Of a stretch of 64,000 nt of DNA, positions 5,683 through 23,438 are shown in pieces (position 1 is the stretch's first letter; each line of letters begins with the position of its first letter). Below the pieces are notes generated by a model. The model did no database searches. It saw nothing but the letters and a program-made list of their open reading frames with translations, and was not told where the DNA came from. Made by a program: the position numbers and the translations under genes. The stretch spans positions 8,269,765 through 8,333,764 of the forward strand of contig NZ_PTJS01000001.1 in NCBI RefSeq assembly GCF_002941025.1. The letters are read 5' to 3'. The DNA is from Streptomyces sp. QL37 (lineage in GTDB: Bacteria > Actinomycetota > Actinomycetes > Streptomycetales > Streptomycetaceae).

Positions 5683-6879
5683 TCAGTCGCGCAGGCAGAG
5701 TTCGCGGTCGCCCAGCCACTGACCGAACCAGTCGCTCAGCGGGAGGGTGAAGCACCAGCCGGAGTCGTTCGTGTCCGGCGTGGGCGTCGTCGGTGCCGGC
5801 TTGTCGGGCTTGGGCGTCTCCGGCGTCCCGCTCGGGTCCGGCGCGGGAGCCGAGGGCCCGGTCGCGTCCGGGAGCCCGCTCAGCATCTCGCGGAACACCC
5901 GGGAGGACTCGGGGTTGTCGGCACACTGCCACACCCCGTGCGGGCAGTAGTCCGTGATCGTCTGGTACACCGGCCTGTGCCGGTCCATCCACTCCAGCAT
6001 GCGGCGCATGTACTCGGGGTTGTCGCCGTTGCGGAAGAGCCCCCACTCCGGGAAGGAGATCGGCTTGCCGTGCTCGGCCGCGAAGTCGACCTGCTTCTGC
6101 AGACCGTACGGTTCGTTCACCTGCTCGTCGAAGGTCCGTGCCGGAGGCTGGTCGTAGGAGTCCATGCCGATGATGTCCACGACGTCGTCGCCCGGATAGC
6201 ACTCCGTCCACGGCACGGCGTCCCGGCCCCGGCTCGGAGCGAAGTCGAAGCGGAAGCTCTGGCCGGACACGGACCGCATCGTCGTGACGATGCGGTTCCA
6301 GTACGACTTCCAGGCGACGGGATCGGGACCGCACCGGTGCGTGTACGTGGTCCCGTTCATCTCCCAGCCGAGGACGATCACCGTGTCCGGGACGCCCAGC
6401 AGGACCAGGCGCTCGGCCAGCCGGCGGAAGTGCTCGTCGAACTGCCCCTCGGCGCCGGCCCGCAGCAGGCCGCGGACCTCCTCGTCGGACACGTGCTCCT
6501 CGTTCCGCTCCAGCATCGGCGTGTTGAGCACGAACATCCGGTCGTCGGCCGCTTTACGCCATGCCGCCCAGGAGGCGAGGAAACCGGGGCGGCCCTCGAT
6601 GTTCTCCCACAGGTCGCCCGGCAGATAACTGTGCCCGACGCGCAGCTCCGTGCCGCCGAGCCAGCGGGACAGCTCCCCCATCCGCTGCACGCCCTTCGGC
6701 CCGTAGTCCAGATAGGCGCCGATGGCGGTCGTCGTCCCCGGCTCCGGCGCCTGCTGCGCCGCGCCCTTGCCGGCCTGGACGTCCGCGGTGTCACGGTCGG
6801 CGACGACCGCACCGCCGACGAGGAGGCAGAGCGCGGTCGCTCCGACGCCGAAACTGATGAGACGGCGCTGTACGGCCAC
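5683..6879 (-). CDS. Secreted GH26-type glycoside hydrolase
   Basis: A 398-aa predicted secreted enzyme. Residues 1-27 are a signal sequence (basic QRR, then hydrophobic GVGATALCLLVGGAVVA). The catalytic domain, residues ~50-335, is a TIM barrel of the GH26 type: Glu173 in LGWEMNG is the predicted acid/base and Glu278 in ISFPEWG the predicted nucleophile. GH26 members act on beta-mannans or related beta-glycans; the exact substrate is not readable. A Pro/Thr-rich linker (~340-375) leads to a short tail ending with two cysteines. It stands alone between a gene gap and the P450. Confidence 0.85.
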   Translation of the reverse strand: MAVQRRLISFGVGATALCLLVGGAVVADRDTADVQAGKGAAQQAPEPGTTTAIGAYLDYGPKGVQRMGELSRWLGGTELRVGHSYLPGDLWENIEGRPGFLASWAAWRKAADDRMFVLNTPMLERNEEHVSDEEVRGLLRAGAEGQFDEHFRRLAERLVLLGVPDTVIVLGWEMNGTTYTHRCGPDPVAWKSYWNRIVTTMRSVSGQSFRFDFAPSRGRDAVPWTECYPGDDVVDIIGMDSYDQPPARTFDEQVNEPYGLQKQVDFAAEHGKPISFPEWGLFRNGDNPEYMRRMLEWMDRHRPVYQTITDYCPHGVWQCADNPESSRVFREMLSGLPDATGPSAPAPDPSGTPETPKPDKPAPTTPTPDTNDSGWCFTLPLSDWFGQWLGDRELCLRD

Positions 6880-6990: not shown

Positions 6991-8280
6991 TCAGAGCGGA
7001 CCATTCGGGTGACACATTTCGAAGGTGAAAGGCAGGGAGCGGACGCGATTGTCGAAATTCGAATCGACCAGGCCCGGTTCGCCCGAAGCCCGGACACCTC
7101 CCGGCCGAGTGAGCATTTCGCGGAAGAGCGCCTTCATCTCCAGTTTCGCCAGATGGGCCCCCAGACAGTGGTGGGGGCCTCCGCCGCCGTATCCGAGGTG
7201 CGGATTGGGCGACCGGGTGATGTCGAAAGCACCGGGGTCGTCGAAGACGGACGCGTCGCGGTTGGCGGACGCGTAGAGGAGTACGACCTTCTCCCCGGGC
7301 AGGAAGGTGTGGCCGCCGAGCGTGCACTCGGCCGCCACCGTCCGGCGGAACTGGATGATCGGCGTCGAGTGGCGGACGATCTCGTCGACCGCGCCGTCGG
7401 CGTAGCGGTCGAAGTCGGACTCCAGGAGGGCCCGCTGCTCCGGATGCGCCGTGAGCAGGACGAGACCGTGGGCGATGGCGTTCCGGGTGGTCTCCACACC
7501 CGCCACGAGCAGCAGCGAGAAGAACGCGCCGAGCTGACGCGAGGACAGGGCCCGTCCGTCGACATCCGCGCGGACGAGCGCCGAGATCACGTCGTCCTCC
7601 GGGAGTCGGCGCCGCTCACGGGCGATGCCCGCCATCTCCAGCTGCATGCGGGCCAGGGAGCGCAGGCCGCGTCCCGGGACACGGAGCCGTGCGCGGCCAC
7701 GCCTCTGTACACCGACGTACTCCGACGCGTGGTCGATGCGCGCAGCGATGCGTGCCCGGTGGCGCGCGGGGATGCCCATGAGGTCGCAGATCACCTCGAA
7801 GGGCATACGCGAAGGTGCCGAACGCATGAAGTCGCCCGGTCCTTCCGTGATCATCTCGTCCACCAGCCGCCGGGCGACGGCGCCGATGTTCTCCTCGGCG
7901 GCCGCGAGCAGCCTCGGTGTGAAGGCGCGGGAGATGGTCCTGCGCAGCCCCGCGTGCTCGGCGCCGTCCATGTTGACCATGGAGTTGCCGAACACCGCCT
8001 TGGCCCAGGGCGCCGGCTCCGGAGTGGTGACACCGGGGGCGCTGGCGAAGACCTGCGGCTGCCGGCTCGCCGCCCTCACGTCGGCGTGCCTCACCAGCGC
8101 GTAGAACGGCGTACGCGACCCCGAGCGAGGGACGAAACGGACCGGTGCGTCGAGCTCCCTCAGCCGGGCGAACTCCGCGAGACGCTCGGACCGTGGCAGT
8201 CGCCAGAACGCGGGATCGGCCAGATCGGCACCGTCCGTTCCTCGCACGCGGACCGTGGGCACCTGCGTCGGCGCGTTCAT
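6991..8280 (-). CDS. Cytochrome P450
   Basis: Soluble bacterial class I P450 of 429 aa. Heme-binding motif YGGGGPHHCLGAHLA places the thiolate ligand at Cys372. The I-helix oxygen-activation motif is AGVETT (residues 260-265), the ExxR of the K-helix is Glu300-Arg303, and the early NMDGAEHAGLRR matches the C-helix. The PHHCLGAHLAKLE pattern resembles actinobacterial CYP124/125/142-like enzymes. The substrate is unknown and no ferredoxin gene is adjacent. The start at 8280 gives normal family length. It is divergent from the tyrosinase operon across 192 bases, so a shared promoter region is possible. Confidence 0.9.
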   Translation of the reverse strand: MNAPTQVPTVRVRGTDGADLADPAFWRLPRSERLAEFARLRELDAPVRFVPRSGSRTPFYALVRHADVRAASRQPQVFASAPGVTTPEPAPWAKAVFGNSMVNMDGAEHAGLRRTISRAFTPRLLAAAEENIGAVARRLVDEMITEGPGDFMRSAPSRMPFEVICDLMGIPARHRARIAARIDHASEYVGVQRRGRARLRVPGRGLRSLARMQLEMAGIARERRRLPEDDVISALVRADVDGRALSSRQLGAFFSLLLVAGVETTRNAIAHGLVLLTAHPEQRALLESDFDRYADGAVDEIVRHSTPIIQFRRTVAAECTLGGHTFLPGEKVVLLYASANRDASVFDDPGAFDITRSPNPHLGYGGGGPHHCLGAHLAKLEMKALFREMLTRPGGVRASGEPGLVDSNFDNRVRSLPFTFEMCHPNGPL

Positions 8281-8472
8281 GCACAACCTCCGGGAGCTCG
8301 GACGGCCATGCTCACCCGGCGGGCGGCGCCGCGCGGCCGACACGGCCGTACCGCACCGCGGAATTCCCACGGTCGCGTGATGCCCTGTGGATGAGAACCG
8401 TTCCCGCTCCGTCTCGTTGCCCACCCGGGCGGGACGCCTCGCAGGAACGGACGAGAGGGAGGTACACCCACC

Positions 8473-8949
8473 ATGAACCCGACCGACGCCGCCATCGGGC
8501 GGCCGCCCGGCGCCCCACGGCCGGCACGCCGGGCGGTGCTGCGCACCGCCTTCACCGCGGCCGTGATCGCCGGCACCGGCGGTGCGCTCGCCCCGGTGAT
8601 CATCGAGGCGGACCCGGAGCCCGGAAGCCCTGCTCGGGAGCGAGGCGCAGTGGGGCCCGAGCGCTTCTCCGAGCTCTACAAGGGCCGGGAGATCCGGGGC
8701 ACGGCCACCACCATGGTGCCGGCCGGTGCTCAGCCGTACGCAGGCGAGGCCGGAGCCGTCACCGCCGTGTCCGGCACCGAGGTCAGCGTCGACGGGAGGG
8801 CGCTGCACGTGATGCGGCGCGCCGACGGGAGCTACCTGAGCGCCGTCAACCACTACGAGTCGTTCCCCACGCTCCTCGAGACGGCCCGCGCGGCGGTGGA
8901 CGAACTCGGCACCGCCCAGTTGTCGGCAGCCTCCCCGCACACCATCTGA
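8473..8949 (+). CDS. melC1: Tyrosinase chaperone / copper-transfer protein MelC1
   Basis: MelC1-type protein of 158 aa that loads copper into apo-tyrosinase and carries it through the Tat system. The N-terminus has a twin-arginine-like signal (PARRAVLRTAFTAAVIAGTGGAL). The mature part has the family pattern FSELYKGREIRG and ends with DGSYLSAVNHYESFPTLLETARAAVDEL. A GGGAGG ribosome site lies before the ATG. The tyrosinase gene follows after 20 bases. Many Streptomyces carry two such operons (melC and melD); which copy this is cannot be decided from the window. Confidence 0.92.
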   Translation: MNPTDAAIGRPPGAPRPARRAVLRTAFTAAVIAGTGGALAPVIIEADPEPGSPARERGAVGPERFSELYKGREIRGTATTMVPAGAQPYAGEAGAVTAVSGTEVSVDGRALHVMRRADGSYLSAVNHYESFPTLLETARAAVDELGTAQLSAASPHTI

Positions 8950-8969
8950 GACCCTGAGGACGAGCACGC

Positions 8970-9830
8970 GTGTACAGCCGCAAGAACCAGCGCGATCTCA
9001 CGCGCACCGAGAAGAAGCGCCTGGTCGACGCGATCCTGGAGCTCAAGCGATCGGGCCGCTACGACGACTTCGTCAGCATGCACCGGGAGTTCTACGTCAC
9101 CGACGCGGAGAGCAGGCCCCGGCCCGCCCATATGACCCCGTCCTTCTTCCCCTGGCACCGCAGATACCTCCTGGAGTTCGAGAAGGCGCTGCGGGCCGTG
9201 GATTCCCGCGTGTCCATTCCGTACTGGGACTGGACGCGGGACAACACGGCGAAGGCGTCCCTCTGGGCGGAGGACTTCCTCGGCGGCAACGGCAGACCGG
9301 GAGACCGGCAGGTCATGACCGGACCGTTCGCCTACCGGCAGGGGAACTGGCGGATCCGCGCCGGAGTGACCGACGACCCCTTCCTGCGGCGCAACTTCGG
9401 CCGGCCCTCCGCGCCCGTCGCACTGCCCGGGCCCGCGGACGTGGACCGTGCGCTGCGCGATCCGGTGTACGACTCCGCGCCCTGGAACAGCGTCAGCACC
9501 ACCGGCTTCCGTAACAGGATCGAGGGGTGGGGCATCAGGGGCGGCCGCGGCGTGGCCAACCACAACCAGGTGCACCGCTGGATCGGCGGGTCGATGGCGG
9601 GCGCCGCGTCACCCGACGATCCCGTCTTCTGGCTGCACCACGCCTTCATCGACCTGCTGTGGACCCGCTGGCAGAAGGCGCATCCGCGCTCCCGCTACCT
9701 GCCGGCCCGAGCGCTCCCCGCCGACGACCCGCAGCGGGACCGGGTGTTCGCGCATGACCAGCCCATGCCGCCGTGGGACGTGGCGCCCTCACAGCTCATG
9801 GACCACACCCGGCTTTACCGGTACGTCTGA
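8970..9830 (+). CDS. melC2: Tyrosinase MelC2 (type-3 copper monooxygenase)
   Basis: A 286-aa tyrosinase that hydroxylates monophenols and oxidises diphenols to quinones, leading to melanin. Both copper sites are intact: CuA ligands His38 (SMHREF), His54 (PAHMTP) and His63 (FPWHRR); CuB ligands His198 and His202 (ANHNQVHRW) and His224 (FWLHHAFID). It has no signal peptide of its own, as expected for export with MelC1. The GTG start gives MYSRKNQRDLTRTEKKR, which aligns with known MelC2 N-termini. A strong hairpin follows the gene. Confidence 0.95.
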   Translation: MYSRKNQRDLTRTEKKRLVDAILELKRSGRYDDFVSMHREFYVTDAESRPRPAHMTPSFFPWHRRYLLEFEKALRAVDSRVSIPYWDWTRDNTAKASLWAEDFLGGNGRPGDRQVMTGPFAYRQGNWRIRAGVTDDPFLRRNFGRPSAPVALPGPADVDRALRDPVYDSAPWNSVSTTGFRNRIEGWGIRGGRGVANHNQVHRWIGGSMAGAASPDDPVFWLHHAFIDLLWTRWQKAHPRSRYLPARALPADDPQRDRVFAHDQPMPPWDVAPSQLMDHTRLYRYV

Positions 9831-9910: not shown

Positions 9911-10192
9911 TCAGTGGCCGTAGGCGTGCTCGCCCTTGGCCTCGTGGCTGTCCGACACGTTGGCGCAGGTGTTGCCGAACGCCGGGTTCAGCAGGGCGAT
10001 CACGTTCACCGTGTTGCCGCACACGTTGACGGGGATGTGGACCGGCACCTGGACGACGTTGCCCGAAAGGACACCGGGGGAGTGGGCCGCGACGGCCTCC
10101 GCGCCGGAGTCGGCGGTAGCCATGCCGGCGCCGCCGGCGATCAGGGCACCGGTACCTGCCATGACGGCGGCCACCTTCGAGATACGCGACAT
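9911..10192 (-). CDS. Short chaplin (cell-surface amyloid protein)
   Basis: A 93-aa secreted chaplin. Residues 1-27 form a signal peptide (SRISKVAAVMAGTGALIAGGAGMA). The mature chaplin domain contains HSPGVLSGNVVQVPVHIPVN, then VCGNTVNVIALLNPAFGNTC, with the two conserved cysteines that form a disulfide. A polar His/Glu/Lys tail follows (SDSHEAKGEHAYGH). Chaplins assemble into amphipathic fibrils that coat aerial hyphae. There is no LPXTG sorting signal, so it belongs to the short, non-anchored group. AAGGAG lies seven bases before the ATG. It is downstream of the polysaccharide operon, same strand, with its own 110-base leader. Confidence 0.93.
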   Translation of the reverse strand: MSRISKVAAVMAGTGALIAGGAGMATADSGAEAVAAHSPGVLSGNVVQVPVHIPVNVCGNTVNVIALLNPAFGNTCANVSDSHEAKGEHAYGH

Positions 10193-10303
10193 CAGTTCTC
10201 CTTGGGAGGGTCGAAGCCGGCCGCCGAGAGTGCGGCCGGTATGCCCTGACAACGCGAAAGTCGACAGACGGTAACGGATCGTGGCAAAACTCATCATCAC
10301 GGC

Positions 10304-11470
10304 TCAACTCAGGCCGATGAACGCGGCCCCGGCAGCCGGCAGCTCACCGAGCCGGCCGCGCCAGTCCCGCGCTGCGGGTAGGCGGGACTTCACCGTCTCC
10401 GCCGCCCGGTCCCGGACGGTCACCTGCGTCTCGCGCAGCCGCAGCAACGGCTCCAGCGCCGGACGGGCCAGCATCAGGCGCCGGTTGACGACCGGCACGG
10501 GGCCCCAGTGGTTCTTGTACTGCTCCGAGCCGCGCAGCAGGCTCAGCACACCGCGGTCCAGGTCCCCGGCCTCCCGGGCGATCTCACGTAGCAGCATCGT
10601 GGAGACATCCACCTTCGTCTCCCTGAGCCGGGGGTCGGCCCCGTAGAGGTAACCCCCCGTCAGCCGCGCGGACCGGAACGACAGGTCGGCGGCCACCACC
10701 TCCCCGTCGAGCAGGAACTCCCTGACCGAGGCCTCGCCGTCGCGCACCATCCGGCGGGTGGAGCGCACCAGATGCGCGCAGAACCGGGGCCGCAGATGCT
10801 CCGGGTTGACACCCCGGCCGAGCCACTGGAGCTCGTGCAGCCGCAGCAGGGTGCCGACGGCGCCCGCCACCCGGTGCACGGGCGCGGTGCGGCACTCGAT
10901 GCCGAGCGCGTCGATCCTGCGGAGCTTGGCCCGCGTCCGCTGGGCGCGCGAACCGGTCATCCGCCCGATGAGGGCGTCGATGGGCTCGGCGGGCAGCTCC
11001 ATGCAGGTCGAGTCCGTGCGGCTGCTCCGGGCGCCTGACCACGCCTCGAAGAGCAGGTGCGCCGAGGCGTCGGGCCGCACCTCCCGCAGGTCCACGACCG
11101 AATGCGCGGCGGCCCGGTGGAGCCCGCGCTCCAGCGCTTCGACCGCTGCCGGGGTGTCCTCGCCGTCCACCAGAATGTCGAAGAAGTCGGAGATCGCGCC
11201 GCCCATCGGCACCAGCAGGGGCATCGGGCGGTGCACGAGCATCAGCGGCGCCGCCCCGATCAGCCGGTCTCCCCGGCGCGCGAGGAGGACCCGGAGGCGG
11301 CCGGGCACCCCGTAGGAGAGCCACCACGAGTGGAGCCACGCATGGCTCTGGAACGGCGTCGCGGTGGGGCACCGGCGGTGCAGCGCGTCCCACTCCGCGG
11401 CGAGGTCCACGAAGTCCGGCAGATCCCTGCAAAGGGTGACGGTGAGCCGCCCGTGTCGGTCGGTGTTCAT
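10304..11470 (-). CDS. GNAT-fold acetyltransferase (CelD/BcsL or FemAB-like), last gene of the EPS operon
   Basis: A 388-aa protein resembling the 'cellulose biosynthesis protein CelD' GNAT family found in exopolysaccharide clusters. Visible family features are PFQSHAWLHSWWLSYG near residue 40, PLLVPMGGAISDFFDILVDG near 90-110, and SFRSARLTGGYLYGADPRLRE with GVLSLLRGSEQYKNHWG near 290-340. It probably acylates a sugar amine or another acceptor in the polysaccharide (inference). The ATG overlaps the upstream gene by four bases. It is the last of eight coupled genes. Confidence 0.78.
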   Translation of the reverse strand: MNTDRHGRLTVTLCRDLPDFVDLAAEWDALHRRCPTATPFQSHAWLHSWWLSYGVPGRLRVLLARRGDRLIGAAPLMLVHRPMPLLVPMGGAISDFFDILVDGEDTPAAVEALERGLHRAAAHSVVDLREVRPDASAHLLFEAWSGARSSRTDSTCMELPAEPIDALIGRMTGSRAQRTRAKLRRIDALGIECRTAPVHRVAGAVGTLLRLHELQWLGRGVNPEHLRPRFCAHLVRSTRRMVRDGEASVREFLLDGEVVAADLSFRSARLTGGYLYGADPRLRETKVDVSTMLLREIAREAGDLDRGVLSLLRGSEQYKNHWGPVPVVNRRLMLARPALEPLLRLRETQVTVRDRAAETVKSRLPAARDWRGRLGELPAAGAAFIGLS

Positions 11471-12138
11471 CGCACGAGCTCCCTTTCGCCGGTGGTTCCG
11501 CCCTGGGCGGGGCCCGGCACCTGGGCCGTGGCGCCCCGGCGTCCGGTGCGGGGGCGCACGAGCAGGACCAGTCCGCCGACCAGCCCGCCCGCGCTGGCGC
11601 CCACGGCCGTGCCGAGTGGCGTGGACGGGGACACGGGGTCCACGGGAGGCACGGCGTGGGAGAACTTGACCAGCTTCACCCCGGTGTCCTTCGCGACGTG
11701 CCCGCTGCTGACGACCACCGCCTCCGTCACCGCGTTGGCGATGTCCGCGGCACGGTCCGGGTCGGCCGACGTGCCGGTGACCGAGATCATGGGTGAGTCG
11801 GGAGAAGTCTCGGACCGTACGTGTGTCCGCAGTTCGCGCACGGGCTCCCCGGCGGCACCCTTGGCGTACGACAGGGTGGCGTCGCTGGTGGCCAGGCGGC
11901 CGTACGACTGCGCGTAGCCCAGCGCGGCGGCCGGATCGATGTCCTTCCCGGCGGTGACCATGGCGTAGCTGGTGGCCGCGTACTCGGGCGTGGCGAGCAG
12001 ACCGTACGAGAATCCGCAGGCGGCTCCGAGCAGGACACCGGCGGGCAACGGCAACCACCACCCGGTCCGTACGAACGCGGGTCGGAGCCTGCGGAGCCGT
12101 CCGGGGACGGCCGGCTGCTGCTCTGGCGAGTCGGTCAT
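11467..12138 (-). CDS. Wzz-like polysaccharide co-polymerase (chain-length determinant), no kinase domain
   Basis: A 223-aa protein with two membrane helices, ~residues 28-48 (WWLPLPAGVLLGAACGFSYGL) and ~180-197 (GTAVGASAGGLVGGLVLLV). Between them is an extracytoplasmic domain, and the Pro-rich PPVDPVSPSTPLG lies just before the second helix, as in Wzz proteins. The C-terminus lacks a Walker A tyrosine-kinase module, so it is a short PCP rather than a BY-kinase fusion. Expected role: setting chain length of the polymer. Four-base overlaps join it to both neighbours. Confidence 0.82.
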   Translation of the reverse strand: MTDSPEQQPAVPGRLRRLRPAFVRTGWWLPLPAGVLLGAACGFSYGLLATPEYAATSYAMVTAGKDIDPAAALGYAQSYGRLATSDATLSYAKGAAGEPVRELRTHVRSETSPDSPMISVTGTSADPDRAADIANAVTEAVVVSSGHVAKDTGVKLVKFSHAVPPVDPVSPSTPLGTAVGASAGGLVGGLVLLVRPRTGRRGATAQVPGPAQGGTTGERELVR

Positions 12139-13286
12139 GATGGTGCTCTCTCGGTCGGGGGGAGTGCTGGGGTGTCGATGGCCTGTGCGTAGACGTCCAT
12201 GAGGCGCCGGCCGCTGAGCCTGATGTCGTAGTGGTCCACGGCCGGCGGCGGCGGCAGCCTCCGGGCGCCGCCCTCCATGCGGTGCCGCAGCGCGGCCGTC
12301 AGCTCGTCCGTGGGATCGGCCCCGCCGGCGCCGGAGCCGATGCGGGTGGCGCCCGGCGTCCGGCCCGCCGGGAGGTCCTCGATGGCGGGGCAGGCCGCGT
12401 ACACGACCGGAAGCCCGGCCGCCAGGGCCTCGACGACCGCAAGTCCGAAGGACTCCTCACGCGACGCCGAGACGAACGTGTCGACGGCGCTGAGCACCGC
12501 CGGGATGCCGGGCCCGGCCCCCGGGGTGCCGCACTCGCCGAGGAACCTGACACGGCCGGCCACACCGAGCCGGGCGGCGAGAGCGCGCAGCGCCCCGGCC
12601 TCCGGCCCGTCGCCGGCCAGGACCAGCCAGGCACCGGGGAGGGCGGCGACCGCGCGGATCAGCAGGTCGAAGCGTTTGCCGGGGACCAGCCGGCCCACAC
12701 CCCCCACCACGAACGCCGCGTCGGGGAGGCCCAGGAGGGCTCGGGTGGCGTGCCGTCGAGCGCTGTCGAAGCGGAAGGCCGCCACGTCGACGCCGTTGGG
12801 GACGGTATGGATCCGGGCGGCCGGCACCCCCCAGTCACGCAACCTGCCCGCGACGGTGTCGGAGACCGCGACCGTCGCCGCCCCGAGCCGCTCGGTGCGC
12901 AGGTAGAGCTCCCTGGTGGAGCGGGTGAGCGGCCGTCCCTCGATCTCCGCGCGGCCGAGCGAGTGCTCCGTCGACACCGCGGTGGTCCCGGCGAGACGTG
13001 CCGCGATCCGTCCGTAGACGCAGGCCCGGTAGAGGTGCGTGTGCACGAGGTCGTAAGAGCCGCGACGGATGAGCCGGGCCAGCCGGGGCACGGCGCCGAG
13101 GTCCCGGTTGCTTCTCATCCCCAGGTCCCGGACGCGGACGCCGTCGGCGCGCAGCCCCTCCGCGACCGCTCCCGGATTGGTGAGCGTCACGACGTCGCAG
13201 CGCACCGGCAGATGGCGCAGCAGCAGCCGCAGCTGCTGCTCGGCGCCGCCGACGCCGAGGCCGGTGATGACGTGCAGCGCCCTCAC
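12135..13286 (-). CDS. Family 4 glycosyltransferase (EPS)
   Basis: A 383-aa GT-B fold retaining glycosyltransferase. N-terminal acceptor domain: VITGLGVGGAEQQLRLLL and THLYRACVYGRIAARLAG. C-terminal donor domain: VGGVGRLVPGKRFDLLIRA and the GT4 motif SREESFGLAVVEALAAGLPVV, where the glutamate pair contacts the nucleotide-sugar. It is predicted to act at the inner membrane face in building the repeat unit. Coupled by four-base overlaps to the Wzz-like and deacetylase genes. Sugar specificity unknown. Confidence 0.88.
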   Translation of the reverse strand: MRALHVITGLGVGGAEQQLRLLLRHLPVRCDVVTLTNPGAVAEGLRADGVRVRDLGMRSNRDLGAVPRLARLIRRGSYDLVHTHLYRACVYGRIAARLAGTTAVSTEHSLGRAEIEGRPLTRSTRELYLRTERLGAATVAVSDTVAGRLRDWGVPAARIHTVPNGVDVAAFRFDSARRHATRALLGLPDAAFVVGGVGRLVPGKRFDLLIRAVAALPGAWLVLAGDGPEAGALRALAARLGVAGRVRFLGECGTPGAGPGIPAVLSAVDTFVSASREESFGLAVVEALAAGLPVVYAACPAIEDLPAGRTPGATRIGSGAGGADPTDELTAALRHRMEGGARRLPPPPAVDHYDIRLSGRRLMDVYAQAIDTPALPPTERAPS

Positions 13287-14053
13287 CCGGCGTCACCCGG
13301 CCGCCCGGCGCCGGGGGAGCGGTGCCGCAGCCGGTGCCGTAGCTCCTTGGCCAGCAGACGGGCACCCCGGTCGGCATGGCTGACATGCGTGCGCGGAAGG
13401 GCGAACGGCCCCGACAGGGAGCCGGGTGAGAGGGCGCATCCGTACGCGTAGCCCGCGTCCCGCACGGACTCGGCCACCCGGCGGTCGGCCGTGCCGTAGG
13501 GGTAGCAGAAGCCGGAGGGCGCCTGCCCGGTGACGCGTCGCAGCTCCTCCCGGCTGCCGTGCGTCTCCTCGCGCAGTTCCTCGTCCGACAGAGCCGTCAG
13601 ATCCCGGTGGAGCATCCCGTGCGAGCCGACCTCCATACCCGCCGCGGCGACCGTACGTACCTCCTCCTCCGTCAGCAGCGGCCTGCGCGGGCCGAGCGGG
13701 TCCCAGGCGTTGGAGCCGCCGGGCCGGCCGGGCAGGACGAACACCGTCGCGGTGCAGCCGTGGGCGCGCAGCACCGGAAGCGCCTCGTCGAGGAAGTCGG
13801 CGTACCCGTCGTCGAAGGTGAGCCCGACCAGCCCTTGCTTCCCGGCGGCCCGCGCACGCAGCAGGGCCGCGATCCCGACGCCGGTCAGTCCACGGCGCCG
13901 TAGCCAGGTGAGCTGCTCGTCCAGACGGCCGGCGGAGACGGTGATGCCGTACGGATCCTCCGTGGGGTCGCTCACCGAGTGATAGGTCAGGATCCACGGC
14001 CGGGACCTGGGAGGGAGCGTCCGGGCGGGGGGCGCCGAGGTGTCAGCGGTCAT
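13283..14053 (-). CDS. Polysaccharide deacetylase (CE4 / NodB domain)
   Basis: A 256-aa NodB-type deacetylase. LTYHSVSD begins the domain; VGLTFDDGYADF gives the catalytic and metal aspartates; EVGSHGMLHRDL gives the two zinc histidines; CYPYGTADRR is motif 3. CE4 enzymes remove N-acetyl groups from amino sugars, so the operon product probably contains a GlcNAc-like residue (inference). There is no signal peptide, so it may act on a cytosolic precursor. The start overlaps the flippase gene by 11 bases and the end overlaps the GT4 gene by four. Confidence 0.87.
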   Translation of the reverse strand: MTADTSAPPARTLPPRSRPWILTYHSVSDPTEDPYGITVSAGRLDEQLTWLRRRGLTGVGIAALLRARAAGKQGLVGLTFDDGYADFLDEALPVLRAHGCTATVFVLPGRPGGSNAWDPLGPRRPLLTEEEVRTVAAAGMEVGSHGMLHRDLTALSDEELREETHGSREELRRVTGQAPSGFCYPYGTADRRVAESVRDAGYAYGCALSPGSLSGPFALPRTHVSHADRGARLLAKELRHRLRHRSPGAGRPGDAG

Positions 14054-15653
14054 GAGGGAACCTCTGTCGGATAAGTGCGAGCAGATGAACGGCTTCCGGT
14101 GCCCGGAGTACGAGCCCGGTGAGAAGGAACGCCATGGGTACGAGCAGACAGCCGGCCGCCAGGCCCGGCAGCGGCCCCGGCACCAGCTCCGTGGCCAGCC
14201 GGCCCGCGGCCGCCGCGACCGCCGCCGCCGCCACCGGCCGGGCGAGGGAGAGGGCGACTGCCCCGGGCCGTACGGCCACCGCCCGCGAGCCCAGCCCCAG
14301 CAGCATCAGCAGGGCGGCCGTGCTGATGCCGACGGCATTGGCGGCGGCGATGCCGTCGACACCGAAGGGGCCGGCCAGAAGCACTCCGGCCACGGTGGTG
14401 ACCAGGAGTCCCGCGCCCATCGCGCCGAGCGGGTACCAGGTGGGCCGGCCGGCCGAGAAGAACGGCCGGCACAGGGCGCCGACCAGTGTGTGGCCGAGCA
14501 GGCCCAGCGCGTAGACCCGCATGACACCGGCCGTGGCGGCGGTGTCCGCCGCGTCGAAGGCGCCGCGCTGGAAGAGGACTTCGACGATGCGGGGCGCACA
14601 GCCGAGCACCGTCGCCGTGCCCAGCAGCACCACGGTCCCGGCCAGGGCCAGATCGCGTTCGACCCGCTGCCGGGCACCCTCCCGGTCCCCGGCCGCCATG
14701 GCCCGCGCGACGACGGGGAAGGTCACCGTGCAGATCATCATGGACAGCACCATCGGCAGCTGCGCGACCTTCTGCGCGTAGTTCAGATGCGAGATCGCCC
14801 CGTCCGGCAGCGACGACGCGAGGAACCGCTCGACGAAGACCTGCGACTGACGGCTCACCACGAACAGGACGACCGGCGCCAGGACCGTCGCCCCGAGAAG
14901 GGCGGAACCGGAACCTCGCTCCCGGTGCGCCCCCTTTCCGCGCCGCGCGGGAACCAGCCGCAGGAACGTGGGCAGCAGGGTCAGGATCATCAGCAGGCTG
15001 CCGACGGCGACCCCCGCGGCCGCGGCGCGGACCCCCCAGACCGAGTGCAGAGCCAGCGTCATGCCGATGATGCCGACGTTGTACGCGATGTAGACACCGG
15101 CCGGTGCCAGGAACCTGCCGTGCGCCCGCAGCGCCGCGCTGAAGTACCCCGTGATGCCGAAGGTGAGGACCGTGACGGCCGTCAGACGTGTGCAGTCCAC
15201 CGCGAGCCGGGGATCGTCCAGCCCGGGAGCCAGGACGGCGACGGCCCAGGGCGCCCCCCAGACCAGCAGCCCTCCCGCACAGGCCAGCACGGCGGACAGC
15301 CGGGGGAGGGTTTCGGCCACCAGGACGCGGACCGGGTCCTGCGCGTGACCGCCGGCCGCACGCCGGGTCAGGGCCAGGCTGAACGCCGGCACGAGCAGCA
15401 GCGCCATGCCGTCCTCGATCAGCAGCGTGGCCGCCATCTCCGGGACCGTCCAGGCGATCAGGAACGCGTCGCTGGCGTGACTGGCGCCGAACAGCCGGGC
15501 GAGGGCCTGGTCTCGGAAGAGCCCCAGCAGCGCGGCGATCACGGTGAGTCCCGCGGCACCGCCCGCCGCCCGCGCGAGGAAGCGCCCGGGCCGTTGCGGG
15601 GCGTCGGGCGCGGGCGGTCCGGTGACCGTCGCCTCCGTGGCGGTCCCGCTCAC
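14043..15653 (-). CDS. MurJ/MVF-type lipid-linked oligosaccharide flippase
   Basis: A 536-aa polytopic protein (about 13 hydrophobic helices) of the MurJ/MviN branch of MOP flippases. Family segments include LIAWTVPEMAATLLIEDGM, TFGITGYFSAALRAHGRF and VLFQRGAFDAADTAATAGV, the last close to the MurJ motif LLFERGAF. Its place in the operon suggests it moves the lipid-linked repeat unit, in place of a classical Wzx. The GTG at 15653 is chosen because it overlaps the upstream stop (GTGA); a longer start at 15692 would intrude 43 bases into that gene. Confidence 0.82.
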   Translation of the reverse strand: MSGTATEATVTGPPAPDAPQRPGRFLARAAGGAAGLTVIAALLGLFRDQALARLFGASHASDAFLIAWTVPEMAATLLIEDGMALLLVPAFSLALTRRAAGGHAQDPVRVLVAETLPRLSAVLACAGGLLVWGAPWAVAVLAPGLDDPRLAVDCTRLTAVTVLTFGITGYFSAALRAHGRFLAPAGVYIAYNVGIIGMTLALHSVWGVRAAAAGVAVGSLLMILTLLPTFLRLVPARRGKGAHRERGSGSALLGATVLAPVVLFVVSRQSQVFVERFLASSLPDGAISHLNYAQKVAQLPMVLSMMICTVTFPVVARAMAAGDREGARQRVERDLALAGTVVLLGTATVLGCAPRIVEVLFQRGAFDAADTAATAGVMRVYALGLLGHTLVGALCRPFFSAGRPTWYPLGAMGAGLLVTTVAGVLLAGPFGVDGIAAANAVGISTAALLMLLGLGSRAVAVRPGAVALSLARPVAAAAVAAAAGRLATELVPGPLPGLAAGCLLVPMAFLLTGLVLRAPEAVHLLALIRQRFPHDR

Positions 15654-17011
15654 GCGCCGGTCGTCCTCTCCGGCTCGGCCAGTGCCCACCACGCGGCGAG
15701 GCCCAGCACGATCCCGGTCAGGACGGTCGAAGGGCCCCCGATGTCCGCGTACAGGAAGTCGACCGTCTGCCAGGTCATCAGCCCGACGGCGACGAGACCG
15801 CAGTCGACGGCCGCGGCTCCCCTGGCCCGTGCGAGCACCAGCCTGCGCACCCCGGCGGCCAGGAGCGCCGCCCAGGAGCCCACCAGCGCGGTGAAGCCGA
15901 TGAGCCCCTGCTCGCCGAGCACCAGCAGATACATGTTGTGGGGGGAGAGCAGCGGCTGCTTGCGGAACTCCTGACCGGCACCCGCCGTGTCACTGCCCGC
16001 GGAGAGCCCGATCGAGGCGTGCCCGTCGCGGTGGGCCGGGAAGCCCTTCAGGCCGACTCCCGCCGCGGGCCGCTCGCGCCACATACCCGCCGCGGCGGCC
16101 CACATGGCGTAGCGGTCGTTGACCGACCGGTCGGGGGCGCTGGTCACCTCGGTGATGCTGGTGAGCCGCTGCGAGACCATCTCCGACCCGACGCCGAAAC
16201 CACCCACCAGGACGACCCCGGCGGCGCCCAGCACCGCCAGCGCGCGGACGGCCTGCCGGAACCCGGTGAGGGCGATCACGGCGAGGGCCCCGGCGGCCGT
16301 CGCGATCCACGCTCCGCGGCTGAAGGACAGCGTGAGCGGGACGAGCAGCAGCGCGGCGGTCACGGGGGCCCACGGCCTCAGGCGGCGCGGTGTGCCGGCG
16401 GGGGGCCGGAGCGCGTACGCGGCTGCCGCCACCAGGCCGTAGCCGACGACCGTGGCCATCCCCATGACATCGCTGGGGCCGAACGTGCCGACAGCGCGGA
16501 TGTCCTCCCCCATGTAGGAGGCGCCGGTGCCGGTGACGTACTGGTGTACCCCCGTGGCGCCCTGGACGACCGCCAGCAGGACGAGCGCGCCCGCGACGGC
16601 CCGGAACCCGGAGGCGTCCCTGACCAGCAGAAGGACAGCGGCCGGTACGAGGACGAAGATCTGCAGGTACCGCACGAACCCCGGCAGTGCCGCCACCGGG
16701 TCCGTGGCGGTGACCGTGGCCAGGGCGAGGCCGACGGCCGGGAGCCCCAGCACGACCGCCGCGGCCGGGGTGAGCGGACGCCGCCGGAGGAACAGCAGGC
16801 AGCCCGCGCAGACGAGGACGGCCACCCCCGAGAGGAGATCGGCCGCAGGCACGCCCGCCACCGTCCAGGGTGACGTGTCGTCGGCCGGGACGGCCACGAG
16901 CAGGACGGTCGCGATCAGCGGCAGCAACGGCCAACGGTCGCCCCACCTGTGAGGGGGCGCCTTCTCCCGGGCTGCCGGAACGACGGGCGGCGAGGCCACG
17001 ATGAGGGTCAC
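15650..17011 (-). CDS. O-antigen ligase / Wzy-like polymerase
   Basis: A 453-aa membrane protein with about ten to twelve helices and the Wzy_C region. A large loop near residues 300-350 contains RYAMWAAAAGMWRERPAAGVGLKGFPAHR and then SPHNMYLLVLGEQGLIG, the usual P/H-N-xxL signature of O-antigen ligase and polymerase proteins. It would polymerise the repeat unit or ligate the finished chain on the outer membrane face. The GTG start lies three bases after the stop of the initiating transferase. Confidence 0.85.
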   Translation of the reverse strand: MTLIVASPPVVPAAREKAPPHRWGDRWPLLPLIATVLLVAVPADDTSPWTVAGVPAADLLSGVAVLVCAGCLLFLRRRPLTPAAAVVLGLPAVGLALATVTATDPVAALPGFVRYLQIFVLVPAAVLLLVRDASGFRAVAGALVLLAVVQGATGVHQYVTGTGASYMGEDIRAVGTFGPSDVMGMATVVGYGLVAAAAYALRPPAGTPRRLRPWAPVTAALLLVPLTLSFSRGAWIATAAGALAVIALTGFRQAVRALAVLGAAGVVLVGGFGVGSEMVSQRLTSITEVTSAPDRSVNDRYAMWAAAAGMWRERPAAGVGLKGFPAHRDGHASIGLSAGSDTAGAGQEFRKQPLLSPHNMYLLVLGEQGLIGFTALVGSWAALLAAGVRRLVLARARGAAAVDCGLVAVGLMTWQTVDFLYADIGGPSTVLTGIVLGLAAWWALAEPERTTGA

Positions 17012-17014
17012 GGT

Positions 17015-18502
17015 TCAGCTGCCTCCGAGCCGGAACACCGAGCCGGCCGTGCGCGCCAGCACGCACATGTCCTGCCAGAGCGACCATGTCTCGATGTACC
17101 GGTTGTCGAAGCGCGCCCGGTCCTCGATCGAGGTGTCACCGCGCAGGCCGTGCACCTGGGCCAGTCCCGTGATACCGACGGGCATCCGGTGGCGGGACCG
17201 GTAACCGGGATGCGCGAGGCTGAACTGCTGGACGAAATAGGGGCGTTCGGGGCGCGGACCGACCAGGCTCATGTCGCCGCGTACGACGTTCCACAGCTGC
17301 GGCAGCTCATCGAGCGACGTCCTGCGCAGAAAACGGCCGACGCGGCTCATGCGCCGGTCCGACGAGACGTTCCACCGGGTGGCCGACTCGTGCGCGTCGG
17401 CGGGACGCAGCGTGCGGAACTTCAGCAGGACGAAGGGCCGCCCGTATCCGCCGATGCGTTCCTGGCGGAAGATGACGCCCGGGCCGTCGCACAGACGCAC
17501 GGCCAGCGCGCAGGCGGCCATCACCGGGGACGCCGCGACCAGGGCCCCCATGGCCAGGACGGCGTCCATGGCCCGCTTCACCCGGTGCGCCACCGGGCGG
17601 TGGGCTCCGGCATGCAGCGAGTGGGCCGTGAAACCCCACACATGGTCCGGCCGGGGCGCGTTCCGGTACCGGGCGACCGGCGCCTGATCCGTGATCAGCC
17701 ACACCCGGCAGCCGTGCCGTGCGAACAGGGCGAAGAGCTCCGCCCCGTCGGAAGCGGCTTCGGGAGGGACCGTGAAGACGGCGTGCCGCACGGAGTTCTG
17801 CACGACCGCCCGGCCGGCGTCCTGCACCGACGTCAGGACGGGCAGCGGGGACCCACCCGTGGGCGCGTCCGCCGACCCGTCCACGGGTGGGCCGGATCCC
17901 GTCACCCGGCCGACCGGCCGCATCCCGTACCGCGTGTGCTCCTGCAGCACGGCGACGACGCGGTCGGCGAACGGACCCTCGCCCACCACCAGGGTGGACC
18001 GCGGATTGCGCGCGGCCGACCAGAGCCGGGACCGGTGGACCACGGCGCGTGCCCCGCAGCTCACCAGGGTCTGGAGGCCGGCCGCGCACGCGAGCGCCGT
18101 CCACCCGGCGGCGAGGCGCGGGTCGTACACGGACACCGCCTCGGCGACGACGTACCACTGCACCACGGCCAGCCCCGCCAGCGCGGGCAGTTCGGCCAGG
18201 GCCGAGGGGGAGAGTCCGGTGCGGTAGAGGCCCCGGTACGCGTTGAGGAGCAGCTGGACGGCCGCCTGCAGGAGGGCGGCGACCGGCGGCCAGGGCCCGG
18301 GGGCGATCAGAGCCAGTGCCAGGCCGAGTGCGAGAACGTCGGAGGCCACGAGCGCCGCCGGGGCCCGGCCCCGGCGGCCTGCCGCGGTCCGTGGGGCGGG
18401 AGCGTCCTCCCTGCCGCTGCGCGGCGGACGGATCGCGGTAGCGGCGCGCCGTACGGCGGTTGCCTGGGCGGCTCGGGGGACAGGTGCACTCTCCGTCGTC
18501 AT
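17015..18502 (-). CDS. Initiating polyprenyl-phosphate sugar-1-phosphate transferase
   Basis: A 495-aa WbaP/WcaJ-type enzyme that starts polysaccharide assembly by placing a sugar-1-phosphate on undecaprenyl phosphate. The N-terminal part has several hydrophobic helices and a nucleotide-fold region (~165-285). The C-terminal Bac_transf domain starts near residue 305: KRAMDAVLAMGALVAASPV, RQERIGGYGRPFVLLKFRT, then LRRTSLDELPQLWNVVRGDM and SLVGPRPERP, all catalytic-domain signatures. Second gene of the operon, coupled to the GT4 gene by a four-base overlap. Confidence 0.92.
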   Translation of the reverse strand: MTTESAPVPRAAQATAVRRAATAIRPPRSGREDAPAPRTAAGRRGRAPAALVASDVLALGLALALIAPGPWPPVAALLQAAVQLLLNAYRGLYRTGLSPSALAELPALAGLAVVQWYVVAEAVSVYDPRLAAGWTALACAAGLQTLVSCGARAVVHRSRLWSAARNPRSTLVVGEGPFADRVVAVLQEHTRYGMRPVGRVTGSGPPVDGSADAPTGGSPLPVLTSVQDAGRAVVQNSVRHAVFTVPPEAASDGAELFALFARHGCRVWLITDQAPVARYRNAPRPDHVWGFTAHSLHAGAHRPVAHRVKRAMDAVLAMGALVAASPVMAACALAVRLCDGPGVIFRQERIGGYGRPFVLLKFRTLRPADAHESATRWNVSSDRRMSRVGRFLRRTSLDELPQLWNVVRGDMSLVGPRPERPYFVQQFSLAHPGYRSRHRMPVGITGLAQVHGLRGDTSIEDRARFDNRYIETWSLWQDMCVLARTAGSVFRLGGS

Positions 18503-19674
18503 CGCTCGGTGCGCTTCCTCGTCGTGGGGCGGGACAGGCCGACAAGTTCCTCGTAGAGGCGCAGGACCGCTCCGGCGGTCTTCGTCACGTCGAAGACCTC
18601 CCGGGTGCGGCTCTGCGCGGTGCGGCCCAGCCGTGCCCGCAGCACCGGGTCGCCCAGCAGCGTGGTGAGCGCTGCCGCGAGAGCGGCGGGGTCCTCGGGC
18701 GGCACCAGGCAGTGGGGCAGGTGTCCGGGCGGCAGGCTCTCCCTGGCCCCGTCGACGTCGGTCAGCAGGACCGGCGTTCCGCAGGCCATCGCTTCGAGGG
18801 GGGCCAGCGCCATCCCCTCCCAGCGCGAAGGGAGGACCAGCAGGTCCGCCGCGTGGATCCAGGGACGTACGTCAGCGCTCTCCCCGGCGAACAGAACGCC
18901 GGGGGGCGCGGTACGGCGCAACTCGTCCCCGTACGGTCCGTCGCCGACCAGGACCAGCCGTGCGCCACCCGTCGCCGCGGTGCGCCAGGCTCGCAGCAGC
19001 ACGTCCTGGCCCTTCTGCCGGCTCAGGCGTCCGACGCACACGACCAGTGGGACCCCGGCCGGGGTACCTTCGAGCAGCCCGAGCGATCCACGGGCCGCCG
19101 CTGCGGCATCCCCGCAGACGGGCCGGAAGCGGCCGAGGTCGATGCCGTTGTGGATGACCGACCAGCGCGCAGTGATGCCCGCTCGCTGCCCGGCCGCCCG
19201 CTCGGACTCGCTGACGCAGAGGATGCGGTCGCTCCACCGCGCCCCGAGCCGCTCCCACGCCCTTGCCAGCCCGGCGGCCCGGCCTTCCAGGGCCTCGAAG
19301 GACCAGGCGTGCGGCTGGAAGACGGTCGGGACCCGGCCGCGCACGGCCAGCCGCCCGGCGAGTCCCGCCTTGGCGCTGTGGGCATGGACCACGTCGGGAG
19401 CGCACGCACGGATCAGACGGCCGGCGGTGAGGACCTCCCGGCCGAGCCGGGGGCCGGGGGCGCGCTCCGCCGGCCAGGCACACACCCGTGCCCCGGCGGT
19501 GGACGCTCCGGCCGCCAGGGCCCCGTCGGGCGGGCAGGCCACGACGGGCCGCAGTCCTGCCCGTACCTGTGCCGCGACGAGGTCGGTCACGACCCGTGCG
19601 ACTCCTCCCTCCACCGGCTGGACCAGGTGAAGGACTGTCAGTCGTTTTTCCTCGGTGCAACTTTTCTGCAGCAC
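18499..19674 (-). CDS. Family 4 glycosyltransferase, first gene of the EPS operon
   Basis: A 391-aa GT-B enzyme. N-terminal HLVQPVEGGVARVVTDLV begins the fold; VVCVGRLSRQKGQDVLLRAW and PSRWEGMALAPLEAMACGTPV mark the donor domain with the GT4 glutamate motif. The reading frame stays open upstream to 19806, but I place the start at the GTG at 19674 because GAAAGAGAG lies just upstream and upstream codons are not Streptomyces-like. It heads an eight-gene operon running to 10304 with no gap above three bases. Confidence 0.85.
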   Translation of the reverse strand: MLQKSCTEEKRLTVLHLVQPVEGGVARVVTDLVAAQVRAGLRPVVACPPDGALAAGASTAGARVCAWPAERAPGPRLGREVLTAGRLIRACAPDVVHAHSAKAGLAGRLAVRGRVPTVFQPHAWSFEALEGRAAGLARAWERLGARWSDRILCVSESERAAGQRAGITARWSVIHNGIDLGRFRPVCGDAAAAARGSLGLLEGTPAGVPLVVCVGRLSRQKGQDVLLRAWRTAATGGARLVLVGDGPYGDELRRTAPPGVLFAGESADVRPWIHAADLLVLPSRWEGMALAPLEAMACGTPVLLTDVDGARESLPPGHLPHCLVPPEDPAALAAALTTLLGDPVLRARLGRTAQSRTREVFDVTKTAGAVLRLYEELVGLSRPTTRKRTER

Positions 19675-21992: not shown

Positions 21993-23132
21993 TCACGCGT
22001 CAGGGACGGTGTGCTGGACCTGCCGGAGGAAGGCGGCGTTGTCGGGGGTCCTGCGCATCTTGTCCAGCAGGGCTTCGAGCGTGGTCCGGGAGTCCCTCGA
22101 CCCCAGGGCGCGCCGCAGACCCCGTACGGCGGCCAGTTCCCACGCGGGCAGCAGGAGTTCCTCACGGCGGGTGCCTGACGGCGTGATGTCGACCGCGGGA
22201 AAGACCCGTCGGTCGGCGGACGCGCGGTCGAGGCGGAGCTCCATGTTGCCGGTGCTCTTGAGCTCCTCGAAGAAGTAGTCGTCGGCGCGGGAGCCGGTGT
22301 CCACCAGCGCGGTCGCCAGAATGGTGAGCGAACCGCCTTCCTCGGCGAGCCGGGCCGCGCCGAACAGCTTCTTGGGACCGATGAGCGCCGAGGCGTCCAC
22401 GCCGCCGCTCAGGGTGCGGCCGCCGGCCCCGGCGTTGTTGTTGTGGGCGCGGCACAGCCGGGTGAGGGAGTCGAGGAGGATCACGACGTCGCGGCCCTGT
22501 TCGACCAGCCGCTTGGCGCGTTCCACGGCGAGGTCCGCGAGCGCGATGTGCTCCTTCGCGGGCCGGTCGAAGGTGGAGGCGTACACCTCCCCGCGCACGG
22601 AACGGCGCATGTCCGTGACCTCTTCGGGGCGTTCGTCCAGGAGGACCACCATCAGGTGGCACTCGGGATGGTTGACGGCGACCGACGCGGCGATCTGCTG
22701 CAGAAGTACGGTCTTGCCGGTCTTCGGAGGCGCGACGATCAGTCCGCGCTGCCCTTTGCCGACGGGCGAGACGAGATCGATGATCCGCGGGGCCGGGCCC
22801 CCGTCCGGCCTCTCCAGGCGCAGGCGCTCCCGGGGGTGGAGCGGGGTGAGGTCACGGAAGTGCGGGCGGCCCCGGAGTTCGTGTGCCGCACGGCCGTTGA
22901 CGGTGTCGACGCCCGACAGGGTGCGAGGGCGCTCGCACGTCCCGTCGACGACATCGCCCTTGCGCAGGCCGTGCCGACGGATCAGCGCGGGCGGTACCTG
23001 GACGTCGCGGAGTGAGGGGTGGCCGCCGTCGGCGCGCAGTACGCCGTGCCCGTCGGCCGTGGTGTCGAGGACACCGATGGTGCGGACGGGCTGATCCTGC
23101 CGGACCACGGGGCGTTCGAGTGTGCTGGTCAT
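21993..23132 (-). CDS. rho: Short paralogue of transcription termination factor Rho
   Basis: A 379-aa Rho-family hexameric RNA helicase. An OB/cold-shock RNA-binding domain begins almost at once (residues ~17-75: TIGVLDTTADGHGVLR, then LIRRHGLRKGDVVDG). The ATPase core is complete: Walker A APPKTGKT (134-141), DERPEEVTDM with Glu168, Walker B VVILLD (216-221), SLTRLCRAHNN, and the Q/R-loop region GPKKLFGAARLAEEGG through STGNMELRLDR. It lacks the long N-terminal extension of the main actinobacterial Rho (roughly 600-700 aa), so it is probably a second copy. The ATG at 23132 follows GAAAGGA; a longer frame to 23282 has poor codon bias. Confidence 0.88.
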   Translation of the reverse strand: MTSTLERPVVRQDQPVRTIGVLDTTADGHGVLRADGGHPSLRDVQVPPALIRRHGLRKGDVVDGTCERPRTLSGVDTVNGRAAHELRGRPHFRDLTPLHPRERLRLERPDGGPAPRIIDLVSPVGKGQRGLIVAPPKTGKTVLLQQIAASVAVNHPECHLMVVLLDERPEEVTDMRRSVRGEVYASTFDRPAKEHIALADLAVERAKRLVEQGRDVVILLDSLTRLCRAHNNNAGAGGRTLSGGVDASALIGPKKLFGAARLAEEGGSLTILATALVDTGSRADDYFFEELKSTGNMELRLDRASADRRVFPAVDITPSGTRREELLLPAWELAAVRGLRRALGSRDSRTTLEALLDKMRRTPDNAAFLRQVQHTVPDA

Positions 23133-23438
23133 GGTGGGTCCTTTCGCGGACATGGCGAATGAGAGGTCCGGCGAAGGCAAGGCGGCGGAATCACGCCTTG
23201 TGCGACGGGCGTAGGAAGCCCGGACCGGACGGAAGAGATGGTGCGGGAAGCTGGATCGCCGGTCGTCGAAGGACGGGCGCAACAGCGGGGGAGAAGCACC
23301 GGCGCCCGATTCGGGCGTTCACGTGTGCTTGGGGCAACTTACCACGCGAAGGTCGGGGAGGGGAAGGCCCGGTGTCCCCGGGGCTGACGGCGGCCTCAAC
23401 GGTTTGTCGGCCGGGCGGGCCCCGGGCGCCCCCGGCGT
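23133..23438. other. Intergenic region upstream of the Rho paralogue
   Basis: A 306-base stretch between the Rho-like gene (leftward, starting at 23132) and the 3' end of the MarR gene, which reads in the same direction. No coding signal is seen. It must contain the Rho-gene promoter and leader, and perhaps a terminator for the MarR gene. No clean -35/-10 pair was found. Confidence 0.4.

Follow-up and report, generated by a model that had tools for sequence, protein, structure and literature searches.

What does a bacterium make with eight tightly coupled exopolysaccharide-type genes, and why do they so often lie among the chaplin genes of Streptomyces? The genes in question form a minus-strand operon at positions 19674 to 10304 of a 64,000-nucleotide stretch of Streptomyces sp. 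QL37 (hereafter the window: contig NZ_PTJS01000001.1 of assembly GCF_002941025.1, positions 8,269,765 to 8,333,764). The locus is not a one-strain oddity: together with a ninth gene for a secreted GH26 glycosidase, the operon is a conserved set without known product. Our reading, to which we would give a probability of about 0.7, is that it encodes a pathway of the Wzx/Wzy type, whose product would be an amino-sugar polymer of short repeat that the GH26 enzyme trims. If so, many Streptomyces and several sister genera would have in common a polymer without name, structure or mutant in the open literature searched, and the flippase used in making it would be of the MurJ type with altered substrate residues.

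What is in the operon? All eight open reading frames (ORFs) lie at the positions and on the strand given for them in the original prediction, and their coordinates bear out its description of overlaps of 4-11 bases or a gap of 3. First in the conserved order comes GTa, a GT4 glycosyltransferase (18499..19674; PF13692/PF13439; GTG start as originally read), which overlaps by 4 bases (18499-18502) the gene for the initiating enzyme, a polyprenyl-phosphate sugar-1-phosphate transferase (PGT; 17015..18502; PF02397, 204.6 bits; TIGR03025, 332 bits, above the NCBIfam cut-off of 295.55). Beyond a gap of 3 (17012-17014) follow a Wzy- or O-antigen-ligase-like membrane protein, either polymerase or ligase (15650..17011; PF04932, 68.4 bits, over the cut-off), and a flippase of the MurJ branch (14043..15653; PF03023, 198.6 bits); the overlap between these two is 4 bases given a MurJ start at GTG 15653, the longest MurJ ORF starting at 15692. 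The flippase gene in turn overlaps by 11 bases that for a CE4 polysaccharide deacetylase (13283..14053; PF01522, 104.5 bits), and three further overlaps of 4 bases each lead to a second GT4 enzyme, GTb (12135..13286; PF13439/PF13692), a short Wzz-like protein of the polysaccharide co-polymerase (PCP) type (11467..12138), and a CelD / Acetyltransf_6 protein (10304..11470; PF13480, 63.6 bits). The families named in the original prediction hold by Pfam and NCBIfam, and for the Wzz-like protein through its predicted structure. Its remark that the co-polymerase lacks a kinase holds for the operon, the part of the genome searched for one: no kinase gene is found beside the co-polymerase gene or elsewhere among the eight. 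There are no sugar-nucleotide enzymes within the operon either, and the polymer's sugars therefore cannot be named. Rfam gave zero matches within the window.

Is this arrangement particular to one strain? A Wzy-like profile found at least 562 relatives among 595 candidate stretches from named-species genomes; the best 80, all Streptomyces, were kept and joined by 16 stretches from other relatives. Of these 96 loci, 82 keep all eight genes with order and strand unchanged, and because both order and coupling recur in this way the arrangement is not due to chance. Of the remaining 14, 12 are clipped at an end by the contig or the fetched stretch, and two (L034 and L102) have no recognisable inner genes. 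Median gaps at the seven junctions range across loci from -11 to +3.5 bases, with the Wzy/MurJ junction at 30 bases or less in just 56% of 102 loci under the chosen MurJ start. The best-80 set is skewed toward close relatives, and 101 genomes spread over the Streptomycetaceae were therefore surveyed as well: by profile search, the Wzy gene is present in 73, as a single match in each, and in 6 of 17 genus groups. A wider set of 20 of these 73 loci, from six genus groups, has the eight-gene order in 19, the exception (L130) being an operon stretched by insertions, whose last gene was not located inside the fetched stretch. A PGT protein search at a strict 1e-60 matched 18 of 41 genomes, all in its own genus, and 0 of 16 outside it. 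Pairwise protein distances among the eight correlate at 0.85-0.93, and those of the eight with GH26 at 0.78-0.84 (36 of 116 examined loci, those with all nine ORFs recovered); none of the proteins therefore looks swapped. The suggested search for the gene order, made here over the Streptomycetaceae, finds the same order widely, and what had been taken for an unusual composition is instead that of a locus conserved in Streptomyces and several sister genera.

The original prediction missed the GH26 gene, a regular ninth member lying outside its coordinates (5683..6879, minus strand). Its protein clears the Pfam cut-off narrowly (PF02156, 22.6 vs 20.2 bits), and has GH26 relatives in the PDB; its presumed catalytic glutamates, E173 and E278, do not vary among 25 sequences. 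Well-flanked loci (those with the full operon, over 4 kb of sequence upstream and over 2.5 kb downstream) have the gene in 64 of 64 cases; of the wider-set loci 18 of 20 have it, convergent in each, and it stays beside the operon across three different arrangements. Within the clade of the window it shares the operon's strand, with chaplin, tyrosinase and P450 genes intervening; the P450 and tyrosinase genes lie here at 6991-8967 (minus strand) and 8970-9830 (plus strand), between chaplin and GH26. A search with the protein gave 2379 relatives among 7999 scored candidates, and the named organisms among the 120 matches listed are Streptomyces or Kitasatospora. If the proposed pathway is right, the enzyme would be a ready reagent for finding and cutting the polymer.

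How might the nine proteins work together? The analysis shows the content, order and conservation of the genes, the folds and the retention of active-site residues; we infer the reactions, their order, the sugars and the place and time of action as follows. PGT would place a first sugar-phosphate onto undecaprenyl phosphate, and GTa and GTb would add two further sugars; these three sugar-adding enzymes are in keeping with the short repeat originally proposed. The deacetylase, whose motifs TFDDG, SHGxxH and YPYG are conserved in 107 sequences, has no hydrophobic segment in the window's copy and on that ground probably acts in the cytosol, where it would remove the acetyl group from an N-acetylated sugar in the lipid-linked unit. 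The CelD protein would then re-acylate or aminoacylate the deacetylated sugar. Its AlphaFold model (pLDDT 90.6) is that of a FemABX-fold transferase with a tandem GNAT arrangement: top Foldseek matches include FemX, the aminoacyl-tRNA-dependent Sbb17 and Sba18, and MprF, and most acetyltransferases in the list score below these. The fold does not tell the donor, and it fits aminoacyl transfer as well as the acetyl transfer originally proposed.

The finished unit would be flipped by the MurJ-branch protein, which takes the position of a Wzx-type flippase and would act as a substrate-shifted MurJ paralogue, and polymerised by the Wzy-like protein, with the short co-polymerase in control. This co-polymerase (223 residues) has no Pfam match above any cut-off, and its NCBIfam match is weak (TIGR01006, 23.7 bits vs a cut-off of 296). 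Its AlphaFold model (29 orthologues; mean pLDDT 80.7) gave 342 Foldseek matches with E up to 10 (best 2.3e-6), of which the best 50 are all chains of KpsMT-KpsE complexes or Wzc; the protein thus models as a polysaccharide co-polymerase. Outside the cell, the secreted GH26 would trim or release the chain. The resulting extracellular polymer would have a repeat of about three sugars, including one or more amino sugars, and in Streptomyces it would most likely be sited on developing (aerial) filaments, at the surface on which chaplins assemble. The Wzx/Wzy-type pathway of the original prediction is supported by the initiating transferase, above its TIGR03025 cut-off, by the Wzy_C and MurJ domains and the co-polymerase fold, and by the conserved order and the distance correlations; the retention of GH26 in three arrangements, with its catalytic residues invariant, also speaks for it.

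Is the flippase likely to carry something other than lipid II? Its assignment to the MurJ branch agrees with the original prediction. In the accounts consulted, Arg18, Arg24, Asp39, Arg52 and Arg270 are reported essential in E. coli MurJ, and Arg18 in that of T. africanus also (PMC9973255, PMC4790310); Arg52 and Asp39 are described as dispensable in B. cenocepacia MurJ (PMC4790310). Like the MurJ lipid II flippase, the operon protein belongs to PF03023 and retains Arg24 (103 of 104 sequences) and Asp39 (103 of 104); it differs in falling below the equivalog cut-off and in the replacement of Arg18, by A, S, T or G, in every one of the 101 sequences readable there (of 107; six are gapped). All 105 sequences compared at position 52 have Ala or Ser, and all 107 at position 270 have Lys. 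The only other MurJ match in the genome keeps Arg18, Arg24 and Asp39, with Tyr in position 52 and Leu in position 270; because it likewise deviates at these last two positions, Arg18 is the one clear discriminator, and its absence from the operon flippase while the other MurJ keeps it counts in favour of the proposed pathway. Recent duplication of the housekeeping MurJ was considered as an origin and found no support: aligned identity between the two is 22%, much the same low level as either shows to E. coli MurJ (24 and 25%).

Where would such a polymer act? CslA glucan, an extracellular polysaccharide of Streptomyces, is one carbohydrate beneath the hydrophobic coat of the aerial hyphae; if the proposed pathway is right, the repeated location of the operon among chaplin genes bears on the standing question of which other lies there. 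The window's chaplin gene (9911..10192, minus strand; by translation, with a PF03777 match at the corresponding position of the genome), a frequent neighbour that we do not count in the pathway, starts 111 bases past the operon's last gene. Chaplins are found in the flanks of 56 of 64 well-flanked loci, a further point for the reading proposed here, and tyrosinase in 37 of 64. ORFs in two loci (L137 and L142) resemble rodlin genes and may be such, and are without a Pfam match. The strongest competing explanation, which we rate only slightly short of an even chance, is that the polymer is real and its place beside the chaplins historical, with no functional tie to the aerial coat. It has in its favour that no chaplin occurs in any of 11 flanks of deeper-genus loci in the wider set, in which 6 of 9 loci from groups g1 and g12 do have one. 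In the family survey, likewise, at least 23 of 38 operon-bearing g1 and g12 genomes carry a chaplin gene no more than about 13 kb away on the operon's contig (counted by eye), and none of 35 operon-bearing genomes of other groups has one nearby among the matches listed; all 101 surveyed genomes carry chaplins. These absences weigh against an aerial role, as do the 8 of 64 well-flanked loci without a flanking chaplin. History fits less well with the recurrence of chaplins in those 56 loci, in several arrangements, despite there being only nine chaplin matches in the 8.78 Mb of the window's own genome.

Promoter motifs also bear on this choice. A BldN-like promoter motif precedes the window's chaplin gene (10249..10276, minus strand); it is the sole match to the consensus in the window, with 0 in 100 shuffles. 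Among chaplin upstreams near the locus, 48 of 71 have such a motif with at most two mismatches (1.6 expected). At the same threshold it occurs in 0 of 110 operon upstreams (3.4 expected) and 0 of 55 GH26 upstreams (0.8 expected), which is in line with a historical placement and again tells against the aerial role. Co-regulation of the operon and GH26 with the chaplins by sigma-BldN finds no support in these empty upstreams, with the chaplin upstreams as positive control. In another count, one of 111 operon upstreams had the motif with two mismatches, vs 3 in one shuffle. Operon and chaplins share a place, not a BldN promoter type. A different conserved operon promoter was also sought by k-mer and dyad counts over 47 dissimilar upstreams, and nothing convincing emerged: the top words resemble the stretch adjacent to the start codon. 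In S. coelicolor, chpG, melC, chpF and chpA/chpD lie at SCO2699-2717, and the operon would be expected at about SCO2706-2713. SCO2706-2711 are named in no open-licence PubMed Central paper found, and sco2713 appears a single time in that literature, as an RNA control.

Another possibility is that the Wzy_C protein is a ligase, and that the operon makes a short lipid-linked oligosaccharide for secreted proteins or some other acceptor. The PF04932 domain is common to polymerases and ligases, and the protein's best NCBIfam match is to a putative O-glycosylation ligase (TIGR03097), at 42.8 bits far under the cut-off of 188.1; the small number of glycosyltransferases in the operon would also suit a short product. 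A co-polymerase gene is present throughout, however, and single-unit transfer would give its product no role, while GH26 suggests a chain to cut. We consider the ligase explanation unlikely, though a ligase role of the Wzy-like protein is conceivable and is a point against the polymer pathway. That pathway must also accommodate the flippase score on the MurJ equivalog TIGR01695 (208.2 bits, not far below the cut-off of 235.55), and the two loci without recognisable inner genes, from which it appears that the pathway can be lost. In one of these (L102, Streptomyces sp. t39), MurJ, CE4, GTb and the co-polymerase were not found between Wzy and CelD (11170-11581), and GTa, PGT, Wzy, CelD and GH26 are retained; the gap is either a natural deletion or an assembly fault. 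Scarcely credible is the idea that the operon modifies the cell wall and makes no separate polymer, its MurJ, CE4 and FemABX-like proteins (each with relatives acting on peptidoglycan or its precursor) being a peptidoglycan toolkit: such a toolkit would have no use for PGT, the Wzy-like protein, the co-polymerase and the two GT4 enzymes, Arg18 is missing from the flippase, and a further MurJ is encoded in the genome.

The polymer pathway can also be carried a step further, as a long shot. The CE4 enzyme would free an amine on the lipid-linked repeat, and the FemABX-fold protein would load this amine with an amino acid taken from aminoacyl-tRNA. The exopolysaccharide would then be cationic and aminoacylated, and its flippase a MurJ paralogue re-tuned away from lipid II; in Streptomyces the polymer might be the carbohydrate scaffold that anchors chaplin fibres, remodelled by GH26 as aerial filaments emerge.

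Has any of this been described? No open-licence PubMed Central paper found treats the locus as a polysaccharide locus; subscription papers were outside the search, and “unstudied” is therefore provisional. Within that literature, the earlier statement that no described Streptomyces polymer is assigned to this set agrees with what was found. The nearest described loci found, compared by description alone, are wps-3, wps-1 and imp of Actinoplanes missouriensis. As described, wps-3 resembles the operon in its GT4, Wzx, Wzy, Wzz and polysaccharide deacetylase genes, clustered with one for a BioF2-like acetyltransferase, and differs in adding an aminotransferase, a monooxygenase, a dioxygenase and a second acyltransferase, with no GH26 named there; its deletion is reported to give no phenotype (PMC13390465). 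The wps-1 and imp clusters are described as Wzx/Wzy-type loci with a glycoside hydrolase (the GH26 WpsE in wps-1; gimB beside imp), and both are needed for normal sporangia (PMC13390465, PMC12691653). Unlike the operon, wps-1 is described as having GT2, GT26 and sulfotransferases (PMC13390465), and imp as having four glycosyltransferases and no deacetylase (PMC13390465, PMC12691653).

Exopolysaccharide sets of the XrtA/PEP-CTERM type are similar in that both GT4 proteins (TIGR03088) and the Wzy-like protein (TIGR03097) match best there and the TIGR03025 cut-off is passed. They differ in that the operon's other scores lie far under the cut-offs: besides the TIGR03097 score given above, the two GT4 proteins reach 123.8 and 105.5 bits on TIGR03088 (cut-off 409.05) and the deacetylase 30.7 bits on TIGR03006 (cut-off 276.2). 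The MatAB product PNAG is reportedly another extracellular polysaccharide of Streptomyces. So is ebosin of Streptomyces sp. 139, whose ste locus includes a Wzz gene, ste8, and a galactosyltransferase gene, ste5 (PMC8902715); from the descriptions available its make-up is different, with 27 ORFs, a dasABC-like transporter and a glucose-1-phosphate cytidylyltransferase (PMC8902715, PMC4347597).

Does the locus have further constant members? Flank ORFs were clustered, the largest cluster covering 90 loci. Tyrosinase came out in 49 loci, and an ATP-grasp-like ORF and a VKOR gene in 32 each; as constant members these were rejected, being nearly absent from deeper genera. The ATP-grasp-like ORF, whose Pfam match is below the cut-off, adjoins GH26 (L137, 3421-4770, plus strand, and 31 other loci) and is possibly a further member in part of Streptomyces. 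The VKOR-family gene (L071, 428-1129; PF07884, 139.5 bits) lies on the chaplin side in its 32 loci, and might have to do with disulfides of secreted proteins. Also on the chaplin side, in L082 (2864-3211, minus strand) and 22 other loci, is a gene for a small, probably secreted protein of 115 amino acids without a Pfam match. Elsewhere in the window, at 21993-23153 (minus strand), a short Rho-like protein is encoded (386 amino acids from the nearest ATG; PF07497 and ATP-synt_ab), which at a guess may be a second Rho.

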